Assembly: GCA_026982415.1 (NCBI GenBank)
Contig: JALSHE010000073.1
Span: 1-57,961 of the forward strand
From: Robiginitomaculum sp.
GTDB lineage: Bacteria; Pseudomonadota; Alphaproteobacteria; Caulobacterales; Maricaulaceae
Reading direction: 5' to 3'
Length of the DNA stretch: 57,961 nucleotides
Shown here: positions 24,130 to 31,963 of the stretch, piece by piece
Layout: the number at the start of each line of letters is the position of its first letter
Position numbering within the stretch: position 1 is the first letter of the stretch
Notes under the pieces: generated by a model
Databases searched by the model: none
Told to the model about the DNA's origin: nothing
The model's input: only the letters and a program-made list of their open reading frames with translations
Position numbers and translations under genes: made by a program

Positions 24130-24816
24130 CTAATTTGCGGCTTTGGTTTTATCTTTAAACTTGCAAATATTCGAAACTACACAATTAAAACACATGGGCG
24201 TGCGGGCTTTGCAGGTGTAGCGCCCGTGCAAGATGAGCCAGTGATGAGCGTGGACGGCGTATTGCTCAGGAATGACCTTCAGTAAATTCAATTCAACCTC
24301 CAGCGGGTTTTTACCTGGTGCCATACCAGTGCGGTTACCGACCCTGAATATATGGGTGTCCACCGCCATGGTCGGTTGACCAAAGGCGACATTGAGCACA
24401 ACATTGGCCGTCTTGCGACCAACGCCAGGTAAGCTCTCCAAGTCTGGGCGGTTGTCCGGCACTTGGCTACCGAACACATCCACCAGTCTTTGCGAAAGCC
24501 CGATGACGTTTTTGGCTTTGGTTTTATATAGCCCGATGGTTTTGATATAATCCCGCAAGCGGTCTTCGCCAATAGCCAGCATTTGCTCCGGCGTGTCAGC
24601 CACTGCGAACAAAGCCTTGGTGGCTTTATTAACCCCAACATCAGTTGCCTGCGCCGATAAAGCCACCGCAACAACCAATGTATACGCATTGTGATAATTA
24701 AGTTCGGTTTCTGGCTCCGGATCCATTTTTTGCCACAGAGCAAACATATCGGCTATTTTAGCGCGGGTTAATTTTGGCCGTGGAAGCTTCTTTTTGGATA
24801 ATTTCTTCTTGGCCAT
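24130..24816 (-). CDS. nth: Endonuclease III
   Basis: 228 residues. It has the helix-hairpin-helix SLPGVGRKTANVVLN, the lysine in LSAQATDVGVNKATKALF, the catalytic Asp in MAVDTHIFRVGNR, and the [4Fe-4S] ligands spaced Cys-x6-Cys-x2-Cys-x5-Cys (CKARTPMCFNCVVSNIC). It is a bifunctional glycosylase/AP lyase for oxidised pyrimidines. The N-terminus carries a short Lys-rich extension (KKKLSKKKLPRPKLTR). The start overlaps the stop of the FMN reductase gene (TAATG). Confidence 0.95.
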   Translation of the reverse strand: MAKKKLSKKKLPRPKLTRAKIADMFALWQKMDPEPETELNYHNAYTLVVAVALSAQATDVGVNKATKALFAVADTPEQMLAIGEDRLRDYIKTIGLYKTKAKNVIGLSQRLVDVFGSQVPDNRPDLESLPGVGRKTANVVLNVAFGQPTMAVDTHIFRVGNRTGMAPGKNPLEVELNLLKVIPEQYAVHAHHWLILHGRYTCKARTPMCFNCVVSNICKFKDKTKAAN

Positions 24817-25431: not shown

Positions 25432-26316
25432 CTATAAATTCAACTTCATAAATAAATTAAATGCTCCCTCTTCATAATCCGCGAAGGGCGCACAATACTC
25501 AAATCCGAATTTTTCGTAAAGAGCGCGGGCGGCGGCGTAGGGTTGGTTGTTGCCAGTCTCCAAACTGAGCCGCTTATAGCCGCGCGTTTGCGCTTGTTCA
25601 ATAATATGAGCAAGCATGGTACTGCCAACCCCGCGCCTAAGAGCGGCGGATGTTGTGCGCATGGATTTTATTTCGCCGTGAGTTTTGTCCAGCTCCTTCA
25701 AGGCCCCACACCCCAAAAGCACATCATCGTCCCAAACACTCCAAAAACTTATATCGGGCTTTTGTAAGGCCGACAAGTCCAGGGCAAACACACTGTCCGG
25801 CGGGGAATTGGCAAAAGCATCCGCAAGATGATCCCGTAACAATGCTTGTATTTCCGGCCCTGTTAAATCGTCTCGCTTGATCAGCATTTCGCTCTCGGGA
25901 AATCTGTCATAAACGGGAACACCGTCTTTGATGCGGTAATATGCGCCTTTGTTTTCGCAAAAAATATGGCGGACTAAAGCTCTACCCTTGCTATCATCAA
26001 GCGATCCTGCCGAAACATCTATCTGGTCTTTTAATGACCGATAGCCAAACCCGTGCCAGAACAAGGTGCTGCCACAGGTCTGGCAAAACCCGCGTCTGGC
26101 CTTGATGGACGATTGATACCAGCGCACATTGTTTTCGCCCTTGGTGATGAAAAATCCGGATTTTGGCCCGATTAGTGATGCCCAGTGATGGCCGCTCCAG
26201 CGGCGACACTGCTCACAGTGGCAGGCCGTGATTCCGTGAATGGTTTTGTCTGTTCCGCTTAGTTGATATTTCACAGCCCCACATAAACAACCACCTGTGT
26301 AGGTTTCCTCGCTCAT
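25432..26316 (-). CDS. Fusion of GFA (Mss4-like zinc) domain and GNAT acetyltransferase
   Basis: 294 residues from ATG 26316; an 18-residue longer frame reads back into dapB and is not used. The N-terminal half is a GFA domain with zinc cysteines in GGCLCGAVKYQ, CHCEQCRRWSG and FCQTCGSTLFW, the fold of glutathione-dependent formaldehyde-activating proteins. From about residue 155 the C-terminal half is a GNAT domain with the acetyl-CoA loop ALRRGVGSTML and LYEKFGFEYCAPF. Both domains are common separately, but I do not know this fusion as a characterised protein. Its start overlaps the dapB stop by ATGA, so it is co-translated with lysine/DAP synthesis. Substrate unknown. Confidence 0.85.
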   Translation of the reverse strand: MSEETYTGGCLCGAVKYQLSGTDKTIHGITACHCEQCRRWSGHHWASLIGPKSGFFITKGENNVRWYQSSIKARRGFCQTCGSTLFWHGFGYRSLKDQIDVSAGSLDDSKGRALVRHIFCENKGAYYRIKDGVPVYDRFPESEMLIKRDDLTGPEIQALLRDHLADAFANSPPDSVFALDLSALQKPDISFWSVWDDDVLLGCGALKELDKTHGEIKSMRTTSAALRRGVGSTMLAHIIEQAQTRGYKRLSLETGNNQPYAAARALYEKFGFEYCAPFADYEEGAFNLFMKLNL

Positions 26317-27047
26317 AACCCCAAAACATCCCGCATATCGTACAAACCATTGTCCTGTTCCGCTGCCCAAATCCCAGCGGTTAGTGCGCCTTTGGCGAAC
26401 ACGGCACGGTCTATGGCTGTGTGGGTCAGGGTGAGGGTCTCCATGTTGGAGCTTAGGAACACGGAATGCTCGCCGACCACGCCGCCGTGGCGCAGAGCAG
26501 CGATTTCGCTGGGGGTTATGCTCTGCCCACCCGCCTCCAAGGCTCGCCCTAACATCAGCGCCGTACCGGACGGGGCGTCTTTTTTCTGGTTATGGTGGAT
26601 GTCGAGAATGTCTGCGTCCCAGTCTTTAGGCAGGGCGGCGGCGGCTTTGCGCACCAAGTTTTCCAGCACACAAATGCCGATAGAGAAATTGCCGGACTTG
26701 ACCAAGGTAATAGCATTCGCGGCTTTCTCCAGCGCCGCTTCCTCGGTTGCAGAATAACCTGTCGTACCCGTGACAAGTGTCCGGCACGACGTCTCGTACA
26801 TCATCAAAGCCGCATCGATAGCGGCCTTGGGATGGGAAAAATCTATCAGTACATCACAAACCTCAAGCGCAGCCCGCACATCGGATGTAAACTTTACCCC
26901 GCCCGCATCAGCGCCTAGATGGCTAGAATCAGCCGCGACCAAGGCCGCAACCAGTTCGGCCTTTCCGGATTTGGCAATTTCCGTGCGCAAGGCGCAACCC
27001 ATGCGCCCCCCTGCGCCAAGAACTCCGATTTTAGCGCGCACACTCAA
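26313..27047 (-). CDS. dapB: 4-hydroxy-tetrahydrodipicolinate reductase
   Basis: 244 residues. The NAD(P) fold is KIGVLGAGGRMGCALRTEI. Other motifs are LIDFSHPKAA, TGTTGYSATEE, and the catalytic IHHNQKKDAPSGTALMLG. It reduces the dihydrodipicolinate precursor to tetrahydrodipicolinate on the way to DAP and lysine. The gene is close behind secB (8 bp) and its stop overlaps the GFA-GNAT gene. Confidence 0.95.
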   Translation of the reverse strand: MSVRAKIGVLGAGGRMGCALRTEIAKSGKAELVAALVAADSSHLGADAGGVKFTSDVRAALEVCDVLIDFSHPKAAIDAALMMYETSCRTLVTGTTGYSATEEAALEKAANAITLVKSGNFSIGICVLENLVRKAAAALPKDWDADILDIHHNQKKDAPSGTALMLGRALEAGGQSITPSEIAALRHGGVVGEHSVFLSSNMETLTLTHTAIDRAVFAKGALTAGIWAAEQDNGLYDMRDVLGL

Positions 27048-27055
27048 CGCAACGA

Positions 27056-27703
27056 CTAATTAAAAGTCACGCTCTCGCCAGTTTCCTGTGCGCGGCGCAT
27101 CATTTCATCACGGAACATGGCGGCAAAATCCGGCGGCTCCAACAAGATCGGCGGGTAGCCACCATTTTGGGTCATTTCAGCCATGATCTGGCGGGCGAAC
27201 GGAAATAAAAGCCGCGGGCACTCGATCAAAATCATTGGCTGGATATGCTCTTCGGCAACATTGCCAAAAGCGAATAGACCCGCATATTCTAATTCGCACA
27301 AAAAGACGGGCTTGCCGTCGCGTTCGGCTTTGGCACCGAGCATCAACACGACTTCGACAGTGTTTTCGTCAAGCATTTGACGGCCAATTTCAATATTAAT
27401 ACTGATAGCCGGCGTAGGTTGATCTTGACGCAAACTGTCGGGCGCATTTGGATTTTCAAAACTGGCGTCTTTGGTGTATTGAGCCAAAATCCGTAACATA
27501 GGTTGTTGCTCCGCCTCTGCACCATTGCCTTGTTGGGTTGGCTGTGGCGCTTCGACCGGTTTTTTTGCAGGCTTGGCAGCGGGCTTTTTTACTGCTTTTG
27601 GCGCAGGTTTTTTAGCCGCTTTCTTTACTGGCTTTTTGGCCGCTTTAGCGGTTGTCTTCTTAGCCGGCTTTTTAGCGGGCGTTGCTTTTTTCTTCGTAGC
27701 CAT
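27056..27703 (-). CDS. secB: SecB export chaperone with Lys/Ala/Pro-rich N-terminal tail
   Basis: 215 residues, about 50 longer than usual SecB. Residues from about 67 on (MLRILAQYTKDASFENPNAP, VEVVLMLGAKAERDG, CELEYAGLFAF, FPFARQIMAEMTQNGGYPP) are canonical SecB, the tetrameric chaperone that keeps preproteins unfolded and hands them to SecA. Residues 1-50 are a repetitive basic tail of Lys, Ala and Pro (KKPAKKTTAKAAKKPVKKAA) with about 20 lysines, similar to histone H1 or AlgP tails. A shorter start without the tail would need an internal codon; none with a good ribosome binding site is obvious, so the tail seems real. It is divergent from the Tim44-like gene. Confidence 0.92.
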   Translation of the reverse strand: MATKKKATPAKKPAKKTTAKAAKKPVKKAAKKPAPKAVKKPAAKPAKKPVEAPQPTQQGNGAEAEQQPMLRILAQYTKDASFENPNAPDSLRQDQPTPAISINIEIGRQMLDENTVEVVLMLGAKAERDGKPVFLCELEYAGLFAFGNVAEEHIQPMILIECPRLLFPFARQIMAEMTQNGGYPPILLEPPDFAAMFRDEMMRRAQETGESVTFN

Positions 27704-27838
27704 CTTCGTCCTTTGTCATTCAGTTTGGAAAATAAGTGTAAGTTTGATTTGAATAATTGGTTGTTGTTGTTAACATGGACTTTACTGCACGGGAATTCAA
27801 GTCCGCTCACAGATATTTCATCAAGGAATTTTACGCAT

Positions 27839-28567
27839 ATGTCAGATATTTTATTATACGCAATATTGACCATTATAATTGGTGGTTTGCTGTATTCTGT
27901 TTTGGGCAAAGATGTTGGGCAAAACCCAGAGCGGCGCCCGAAAAAGGATCCAAGCCAAGGTAAAGATGCCAATGATGTTTTGGACAATTTTTTCGGCCAC
28001 CCGGACGGAAAAAAAAGGCCGGAAAGACCTGTACAGCAAGAACCAAGCTTTATTGGCCCCGCCGCCGAAGGGCTTGGGGAAATTGCGGCAGCGGATGCCA
28101 ATTTTTCTCTCCCCCAATTTTTGGACGGCGCCAAAGGCGCTTACGGCATGATACTTGAAGCTTTCGCTGCTGGCGATAAAGACACTTTGGCGGCTCTTTT
28201 AACCGACGATGTTAAAGAGCGTTATTTCGCTGCGATTGAAGATTTGGCCGAAAAAGGCCTGACGCAGACAACCGATTTGGCACGTCTGATTGACGCAGAA
28301 GTGGTCAGCGCCGAGAAATCCGGCAAGCAAGCCACAATCCGTGTTGCGTATTTCGCCGAACTGGCGACAGCGCTAACGGATAAAGACGGGAAAGTGGTTG
28401 AGGGCGATCTGGATATGCTGTCGCGGGTTCGGGAGGTGTGGAGCTATGAGCGGAAACTGACCGACAAAAACCCCAATTGGAAATTGTCCGGGGTTGAACC
28501 GCACACAACAAATAATCCAGATACTGACAGTAAGACAGGCGGACCGGATCATTCGCCCGATACATAA
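27839..28567 (+). CDS. Tim44-like domain membrane-anchored protein
   Basis: 242 residues from ATG 27839 (AAGGAA 10 bp upstream). The longer open frame upstream is antisense to the secB tail and is rejected. One N-terminal transmembrane helix (ILLYAILTIIIGGLLYSVLG) is followed by a polar linker and a Tim44/Mba1-type domain (GAYGMILEAFAAGDKDTLAALL, REVWSYERKLTDKNPNWKLSGV). Mitochondrial Tim44 tethers the import motor; the alphaproteobacterial relatives are thought to be inner-membrane adaptors of unsettled function. The secB / Tim44-like / mltA / Smr order is typical of the group. Confidence 0.87.
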   Translation: MSDILLYAILTIIIGGLLYSVLGKDVGQNPERRPKKDPSQGKDANDVLDNFFGHPDGKKRPERPVQQEPSFIGPAAEGLGEIAAADANFSLPQFLDGAKGAYGMILEAFAAGDKDTLAALLTDDVKERYFAAIEDLAEKGLTQTTDLARLIDAEVVSAEKSGKQATIRVAYFAELATALTDKDGKVVEGDLDMLSRVREVWSYERKLTDKNPNWKLSGVEPHTTNNPDTDSKTGGPDHSPDT

Positions 28568-30649: not shown

Positions 30650-31963
30650 GATAGTGTTTAAAATTCTGTGCCATTCCAGTAAGTTTATTAAAAACAGGAA
30701 TGACTATTATGACCAAATTACCAAGCAAGCCCATGGGCTTCGATTTTGACGACGCTCTTAAATCCTTACAAGCTGGCCAGCCTCTTTCTGGCAAGGGCGG
30801 GATATTAACGCCGTTGATCAAGCAGCTAACCGAGGCCGCTCTGGCGGCTGAACTGGAAGCACACATTGCGGGCGAGCAAACCACCAATCGTAAGAACGGT
30901 AGCACCAGCAAGACCATCAAGTCCACCTCTGGCAGTTTCTCGCTAGACACGCCCCGTGACCGTTCGGGCAGCTTTGAGCCGCAGCTGGTCAAGAAACACC
31001 AGACCCATATGTCTGACGAGATCGAGCGTAAAATTTTATCTCTCTATGCTCTGGGGTCGAGCTATTCGGATATCTCCGGCCACATCGAAGAGATATACGG
31101 TATCAATGTTTATACGGCGACCATCAGTGCTGTCACCGACAAGATAATCCCCAAGCTCAAGGAATGGCAGAACCGTCCACTGGAGAGCGTCTATCCGTTC
31201 GTCTGGCTCGACGCCATACACTACAAGGTACGCGAAGACGGACACTATAGATCGAAGGCCATTTACACCGTTCTCGGGCTTAAAATCGACGGTACAAAGG
31301 AGATATTGGGCTTATATACCTCTGATACCGAAGGTGCTAACTTCTGGCTCTCGGTGCTCACAGACATCAATAACCGGGGCGTAGAAGACATTTTAATCGC
31401 CTGCGTAGACGGATTGTCTGGCTTCCCCGATGCCATCAACGCCATCTTCCCGGACACCGAGGTGCAGCTCTGTATTATTCACCAAATTCGCAATTCACTG
31501 CGCTATGTTGGCTCTAAAAACCACAAGGAATTTATGGCCGACCTCAAGCTGGTCTACAAAGCCGAGACCAAAGACTTGGCAGAAATAGCCCTTGATAAGC
31601 TGGAGGAAAAATGGGGCGAGCGCTACCCAATCGTCATTCGTTCCTGGCGCAAGAAGTGGGGGCACCTGTCGGTATATTTTAAATACTCCGCACCGATCCG
31701 CAAGGTCATCTACACCACAAATGCCGTCGAAGCTGTGCATCGCCAGTTCCGAAAATTGACCAAAACCAAAGGCGCTTTCCCGAATGAAAACAGCCTGCTT
31801 AAGCTCCTATTCGTAGGCATAAAAAACATGACGAAAAAATGGACGATGCCAATTCAAAACTGGAACTTGACCTTATCCCAACTCGCCATATACTTCGACG
31901 GACGTTTAGATGAAATACTGGACATCTAAATGTGTAACCTGACACAGAATTTTGAACAGTCTC
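30650..31963 (+). mobile_element. IS256-family insertion sequence, complete
   Basis: 1314 bp with imperfect terminal inverted repeats: GATAGTGTTTAAAATTCTGT at the left and GAGACTGTTCAAAATTCTGT at the right end (read inward), 20 of 24 bases alike when extended to CCA/TCA. It is flanked by the 8-bp direct repeat GAAAGATT, the length typical for the family. One transposase gene fills it. Intact ends, duplication and transposase point to a recent insertion that may still be active. Confidence 0.95.
30709..31929 (+). CDS. IS256-family transposase (mutator type)
   Basis: 406 residues from ATG 30709. An ATG at 30700 is in frame, but AGGA at 30696-30699 sits directly against it and is correctly spaced for 30709. 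Family features are the N-terminal TEAALAAELEAHI, the DDE residues in WLDAIHYKV and ACVDGLSGFPDAI, CIIHQIRNSLRYV, and the end region IYTTNAVEAVHRQFRK with the probable catalytic Glu. No frameshift or stop is seen. It catalyses copy-out/paste-in transposition through a circular intermediate in studied relatives. Confidence 0.95.
   Translation: MTKLPSKPMGFDFDDALKSLQAGQPLSGKGGILTPLIKQLTEAALAAELEAHIAGEQTTNRKNGSTSKTIKSTSGSFSLDTPRDRSGSFEPQLVKKHQTHMSDEIERKILSLYALGSSYSDISGHIEEIYGINVYTATISAVTDKIIPKLKEWQNRPLESVYPFVWLDAIHYKVREDGHYRSKAIYTVLGLKIDGTKEILGLYTSDTEGANFWLSVLTDINNRGVEDILIACVDGLSGFPDAINAIFPDTEVQLCIIHQIRNSLRYVGSKNHKEFMADLKLVYKAETKDLAEIALDKLEEKWGERYPIVIRSWRKKWGHLSVYFKYSAPIRKVIYTTNAVEAVHRQFRKLTKTKGAFPNENSLLKLLFVGIKNMTKKWTMPIQNWNLTLSQLAIYFDGRLDEILDI

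Follow-up and report, generated by a model that had tools for sequence, protein, structure and literature searches.

A histone-like lysine tail, one of several in its lineage, on an otherwise ordinary SecB of Robiginitomaculum

Introduction

SecB is a homotetramer that binds unfolded precursor proteins, and its acidic face docks the basic tail of SecA. In a Robiginitomaculum sp. contig (JALSHE010000073.1, assembly GCA_026982415.1), analysed over positions 1 to 57,961 and here called the window, the secB gene codes for a chaperone that begins with a long stretch of mostly lysine, alanine and proline; the locus raises the question of whether this stretch is translated, where it comes from and what it does on an acidic protein. 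Apart from its histone-like tail, which is specific to the lineage, the product is an ordinary SecB, and several other proteins of these bacteria have tails of this kind. A natural SecB of reversed overall charge, together with a graded series from 0 to 23 leader lysines within one family, provides a ready-made test of how the charge of the chaperone might influence client capture, the handover to SecA and the cellular location of SecB.

The secB Gene and Its Product

The following features were located in the window:

27056..27703, minus strand: secB with N-terminal Lys/Ala/Pro tail; open reading frame of 215 amino acids, ATG start, stop codon included
27557..27703, minus strand: polycationic tail, residues 1-49, composition K20 A14 P8 T4 V2 M1
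27500..27556, minus strand: linker, residues 50-68, with few charges; its last residue is a proline that all 13 SecBs of the genus share
27059..27499, minus strand: SecB core, residues 69-215, delimited by Pfam, alignment and predicted fold
27709..27713, minus strand: Shine-Dalgarno-like AAGGA, 5 nt upstream of the secB ATG
26313..27047, minus strand: dapB (Pfam), directly downstream of secB
27842..28567, plus strand: divergent Tim44-domain gene (Pfam), beside secB

Tail and linker together form a leader of 68 residues. The tail has a net charge of +20, contains many KK pairs and is nearly free of hydrophobic residues, while the core has a net charge of -10 and a pI of 4.5; the full-length protein reaches a net charge of +7 and a pI of 9.3. 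The preliminary description had spoken of a complete SecB domain, acidic as is usual for this chaperone, preceded by about 50 extra residues made nearly only of Lys, Ala and Pro with about 20 lysines. The composition bears this out, and the domain is indeed complete, since the SecB profile PF02556 matches residues 64-202 with an E value of 7e-47 over profile positions 2-139 of 141. When 309 genes called with a crude gene caller in 324,894 bases of the same genome (the window, included by design, plus 20 other stretches) were ranked by the lysine-richest 50-residue segment, the SecB tail came first with 20 lysines, the next gene having 17 and the third 13.

In an AlphaFold2 model built on a 49-row alignment, no secondary structure was predicted for residues 1-63; block pLDDT was 55-63 over residues 1-60 (59-63 for the tail blocks) and 93-98 for the core blocks, residues 71-200. 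The best 19 Foldseek matches in the PDB were all SecB or SecB-like chains, the top one being 1ozb, SecB bound to the SecA C-terminus, and the target TM-score of 0.90 for 1ozb chain E and 1fx3 chain A places the core in the SecB fold. By composition and prediction, the N-terminus has the disordered Lys/Ala/Pro repeats that are characteristic of histone H1-like, KPAA-tail proteins; each subunit would carry the tail as a disordered polycation, built from KKPA/KKAV-type units.

The order secB-dapB was present in all 10 named loci of the genus (L031-L040) and in none of the other 24 (L041-L064), and the Tim44-domain gene adjoins secB in 33 of these 34 loci, the remaining one ending at that point. 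An AT-rich stretch, TTCAAATCAAACTTACACTTATTT, at about 27728-27754 on the minus strand, lies 5′ of the secB start and is well conserved in some members of the genus (e.g., L001, L003, L005, L009); it is perhaps the secB promoter. Elsewhere in the region, Pfam assigned a GFA domain and a GNAT acetyltransferase domain to one reading frame at 25432-26370 (minus strand), and a Mutator-family transposase to 30700-31929 (plus strand), about 3 kb from secB and past the Tim44, MltA and Smr genes.

Start Site and Translation of the Tail

All 13 SecBs of the genus, including the one in the window, have an in-frame leader of 23-89 residues that begins with MA before the core. The AAGGA element provides a ribosome-binding-type match for the long form in the window, and such a match covers 4 or 5 bases at 10 of the 13 upstream starts of the genus and only 3 bases at the remaining three. 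According to an alternative reading, the long form is an annotation artefact, with translation beginning at an internal ATG, that of residue 69, and leaving the tail untranslated; this ATG coincides exactly with the core start, and in the window a GGAG lies 9 nt ahead of it. However, at the corresponding position the other 12 SecBs of the genus have 3-base matches or none, and position 69 itself varies, with Ile in L010, Ser in L012 and, across much of the family, Gln or another residue.

Nucleotide alignments of eight congeneric pairs, which cover 10 of the 13 SecBs of the genus and were built blind to frame, contained no out-of-frame columns in either tail or core, with all indels in frame. 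In each of the eight pairs the tail differences peak at the third codon position; the counts at codon positions 1, 2 and 3 were 11, 7 and 39 of 65 for L003-L005, 14, 16 and 37 of 67 for L001-L006, and 15, 15 and 19 of 49 for the weakest pair, L008-L011. With an ATG that is not conserved, no consistent ribosome-binding site and coding-type change in the tail, the internal start was rejected, and we regard an untranslated tail as hardly credible; the long-form start and the in-frame translation of the tail are well supported by these sequence comparisons.

Constraint and Turnover of the Tail

In the three closest SecBs, the tail has pN values of 0.113-0.141 and pS values of 0.643-0.871, the core 0.023-0.041 and 0.531-0.632, respectively. 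The tail thus evolves more rapidly than the core, as its higher pN shows, yet this value is low in comparison with its own pS, and constraint on its amino acids persists. This constraint is an upper estimate, because pN comes out lower when a low-complexity tail is aligned under guidance of the protein sequence. The nucleotide alignments of the eight pairs point in the same direction.

These values bear on the strongest rival to the electrostatic tether discussed below, a serious one that we consider possible although doubtful. It holds that the tail is a tolerated, expandable leader of low complexity, soluble and translated, which grows and shrinks by repeat slippage and point mutation, is filtered only against hydrophobic or aggregating residues and has no partner. 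Turnover of length within the genus and the occurrence of more than one expansion would be expected for such a leader, and near-exact DNA repeats occur in L002 (period 48, 84% match), L134 (period 18, 95%) and L006 (period 15, 85%); in L002 the codons of the repeat units agree at 21 of 28 sites, 13 being expected. The many other proteins of the genus with such tails fit this reading as well. On the other hand, amino-acid change is low against near-saturated synonymous change in the closest trio, and lysine density has been kept high, without replacement by other soluble residues. Furthermore, the repeat units, summed over tails, come close to a random choice of codons: of 16 tails examined, 10 had any repeated unit, and the repeated lysine-bearing 4-mers within them had identical codons at 205 of 440 sites, where the codon use of the tails predicts 196, which suggests that most units are not fresh DNA copies.

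Another reading looks to expression, with the A-rich ATG-GCN-AAA-AAA start aiding initiation and the remainder of the tail being a by-product. MAKK-type starts are recurrent in the lineage, for example in AtpD and Nth, but the effect covers the first few codons only, and not the approximately 40 further residues that are under amino-acid constraint; we consider it very improbable.

Distribution and Origin among Relatives

A SecB match was found in 13 of the 14 genomes of the genus (own included), in 125 of 137 genomes of the family and in 390 of 398 of the order. For the family, 128 SecB rows were read, with leader starts picked by rule; a weak, low-complexity match, G079:C11 (E 3e-4), lies outside these rows. 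One 97-residue leader (L175) is a wrong start pick that was kept in the counts, and having 2 lysines it does not affect the tallies below. In one clade, 53 of 56 rows have at least 3 leader lysines, a number reached by none of the 72 remaining rows, whose leaders are mostly of the MTDAP, MADTP or MSD type; the clade had an SH-aLRT value of 97 in a quick tree of 149 columns, in which 53 of 124 inner branches were open. At least 9 leader lysines were found in 15 of the 128 rows, that is, in 11 of 13 from the window's genus, 2 of 18 from g12 and 2 of 5 from g17, with a range of 9-23 in these extreme groups. The absence of the tail from all close relatives, named beforehand as the finding that would have spoken against it, is ruled out by these counts.

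On this tree the 3-lysine state needs three changes and the 9-lysine state four, these being counts without direction of gain or loss. In the simplest reading of the sequences, a short lysine leader would have arisen once and later expanded about three times; the tail is one end of a gradient and would be an expansion of the short lysine leader of a larger clade. The preliminary interpretation stands in part: the complete acidic core with a real lysine tail, which close relatives also have, was correctly recognised, while the derivation from a short leader of the clade, as well as the similar tails on other proteins, had been overlooked.

The expansion has shifted the pI of the extreme members from about 4.5 to about 9. 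Across the genus the whole-protein pI ranges from 4.4 to 9.5 and exceeds 7.5 in 7 of 13 proteins; the other 115 family rows have a median of 4.5 and a maximum of 6.3. Among 20 SecBs from other families of the order, chosen among the matches listed and mostly for a match start before residue 45, none had a comparable long tail. In 46 further named loci (L065-L110), four of which (L065-L068) appear identical to family rows, the highest leader lysine count was 8 (L080).

A separate feature was observed in the SecB leaders of g12 and g17 (e.g., L017, L130, L131, L126), where a short motif (DSLSIEGE, ENDLNISLDDG, ENSLNISVDDG, AESINIPDAEG) recurs in otherwise variable sequence; it may represent either a short motif for binding or a pseudo-client.

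The Link to SecA

In Escherichia coli SecB, according to PMC4257090, residues D20, E24, L75 and E77 are required for SecA binding, and the binding peptide of SecA is basic and docks on the acidic surface of SecB mainly by electrostatics. These residues align with D79, E83, L135 and E137 of the SecB in the window; D79, E83 and E137 are invariant among 49 aligned SecBs, and L135 is Leu in this protein. On the other side of the contact, the zinc tail of SecA, CPCxSGxKFKxCHG, is intact in all 11 SecAs of the genus read at the C-terminus, own genome included, a twelfth, with its end unread, lying outside this count. No co-change of SecA with the tail was seen, and a replacement of the SecA contact by the tail found no support in these SecAs. 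Charge compensation between tail and core was also rejected, their net charges being uncorrelated (Spearman -0.04, p 0.67, 128 rows, uncorrected for relatedness). The conserved contact residues, the intact zinc tail and a core charge that does not follow the tail charge together suggest that the normal SecB-to-SecA handover probably survives.

The same data bear on intramolecular masking, in which the basic tail would fold onto the acidic SecA-binding sheet of SecB, compete with the basic zinc tail of SecA and tune the handover. The tail is attached to strand 1 (residues 70-83), which bears D79 and E83; the SecA peptide is itself basic and uses the same acidic surface; and even the shorter leaders of the clade combine charges of both signs. 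The lack of correlation between core and tail charge and the intact SecA tails nevertheless argue against masking, which also leaves the tails on unrelated proteins unexplained, and we consider it unlikely.

Similar Tails on Other Proteins

The pattern KK[PA][AV]KK had 63 matches across the 14 genomes of the genus (own included), against 28 in all for the reversed control pattern; 26 of the 63, as tallied by hand, fall in secB. Thirty of the 63 were read as loci. Outside secB, some matches lie in lysine tails or linkers of ATP-synthase beta, ribosomal L15 and S2, topoisomerase I, RNase E, endonuclease III, MutS and a short-chain dehydrogenase, these proteins having been named by eye, without family search; the remaining loci correspond to proteins without a tail or hold no such frame. 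On sequence grounds, the SecB tail thus belongs to a wider set of tails in the genus. A search of the window's genome with the tail alone had matched secB only, a weak negative given the handling of low-complexity sequence, and the DNA pattern later found the other tails. The presence of Lys-Ala-Pro tails on several unrelated proteins makes a SecB-specific purpose less likely than a generic one, and it leads to the wider question of why bacteria add histone-like tails to proteins.

In other genomes of the genus, Lys/Ala/Pro tails or linkers were observed on an SDR-type dehydrogenase, MutS, endonuclease III, RNase E, topoisomerase I and ribosomal S2 (loci L226, L247, L228, L243, L244, L246, L225). 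A ribosomal L15-like gene (L238, L237) continues into a long C-terminal Lys/Ala/Pro linker and then an extra domain with a VIFYYLLAQNE stretch. The endonuclease III of the window itself (24130-24816, minus strand) has the lysine-rich start MAKKKLSKKK.

The AtpD of the window's genome (L287:192-1703, minus strand, corresponding to G000:C35:19491-21002) begins with a Lys/Ala/Pro tail of 35 residues, 13 of which are lysine. Further AtpD loci were read (L308-L321, L337). The AtpD tail has 11-16 lysines in all 10 genes of the genus read at the N-terminus, 11-13 in the single genes that represent g3, g5, g7, g12 and g18, and only 1 in the representatives of g4, g11 and g13. Of 12 AtpDs from other families, ten have 0-4 lysines; in the other two (L323, L324) the open frame continues upstream through a lysine-bearing stretch, and such tails may therefore extend beyond this family. 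Joint growth of the SecB and AtpD tails was rejected, as G006 has 12 lysines in AtpD and 4 in SecB, and G122 has 11 and 0, respectively. A recent DNA copy from another lysine-tail gene was likewise rejected, with weak local matches only; that to AtpD has 74% identity over 99 bases (E 7e-9, a value that refers to a small local set), as is expected for low-complexity sequence.

Comparison with Known Systems

The canonical proteobacterial SecBs (E. coli and Haemophilus influenzae; PDB 1qyn, 1fx3, 1ozb) share with the present protein the fold, the Pfam family, the SecA-contact residues and, within the genus, a SecA with its zinc tail; they differ in their short leader, which here has 68 residues with the +20 block. 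The SecB-like chaperones of toxin-antitoxin-chaperone systems (Rv1957, PDB 5mtw) also have the SecB fold; however, no toxin-antitoxin pair was found beside secB, where the neighbours are dapB and the Tim44-domain gene, and by structure the protein is nearest to SecBs of the SecA type.

The nearest studied parallel that was found is represented by the KPAA-repeat, histone H1-like tails of Pseudomonas AlgP and PhaF, which are likewise disordered Lys/Ala/Pro repeats appended to an unrelated domain. According to PMC9239181, KPAA-repeat peptides bind DNA in vitro, and a role in tethering granules to the nucleoid is proposed for the PhaF tail. The tail of this parallel is C-terminal and has 154 residues, whereas the present one is N-terminal, has 49 residues and sits on an export chaperone; no folded domain shared with AlgP or PhaF was found, SecB being the only Pfam domain in the protein. 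Chlamydial Hc2 (HctB), whose size varies between strains through the number of lysine-rich repeats (PMC2848022), has comparable repeats of variable number, but it is a DNA-binding histone-like protein, unlike the tail on SecB. Among the matches listed in the open-licence literature (titles and abstract starts), no report was found of a SecB with a lysine-rich, extended, disordered or basic tail, of SecB in Robiginitomaculum, or of a comparable AtpD tail.

A Possible Role for the Tail

The reading that we tentatively favour, while holding it short of probable, is a generic electrostatic tether, in which a canonical SecB would be held near nascent chains or the translocon by disordered polycationic tails that bind polyanions, with the handover untouched. 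The tail would have grown from the short lysine leader. A disordered block of +20 with many KK pairs, a low-charge linker and four copies per tetramer suggest multivalent electrostatic binding of polyanions, which would be weak and non-specific; the partner would most likely be ribosomes, polysomes or nucleic acid, and possibly anionic membrane lipid, although the near absence of hydrophobic residues is a mild argument against a role at the membrane only. SecB tethered in this way may be kept near nascent chains or the translocon with its transfer to SecA undisturbed.

The tether is consistent with the coding-type constraint, the near-random codon use of the repeat units, the clade distribution, the predicted disorder and the intact SecA side; the tails of the genus are often found on proteins of the ribosome or of nucleic-acid metabolism (L15, S2, TopA, RNase E, MutS, Nth, as named by eye), and the DNA binding of KPAA-repeat peptides offers an analogy. 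Against it stand the free variation of the tails within the genus (23-89 residues, 4-23 lysines), the net charge of -1 of two of the 13 leaders and the faster evolution of the tail relative to the core. In addition, tails on ATP-synthase beta and on a dehydrogenase fit a ribosome or DNA tether poorly.

A broader and rather unlikely proposal is that the Lys-Ala-Pro tail is a common module of this lineage, which abundant machines of the cytoplasm (SecB, F1-ATPase beta, ribosomal L15, RNase E, topoisomerase I) have acquired and which brings them together on a single polyanionic scaffold, for instance the polysome-nucleoid or polyphosphate. If this were true, a freely diffusing acidic SecB would have become a ribosome- or nucleoid-anchored chaperone that acts co-translationally.
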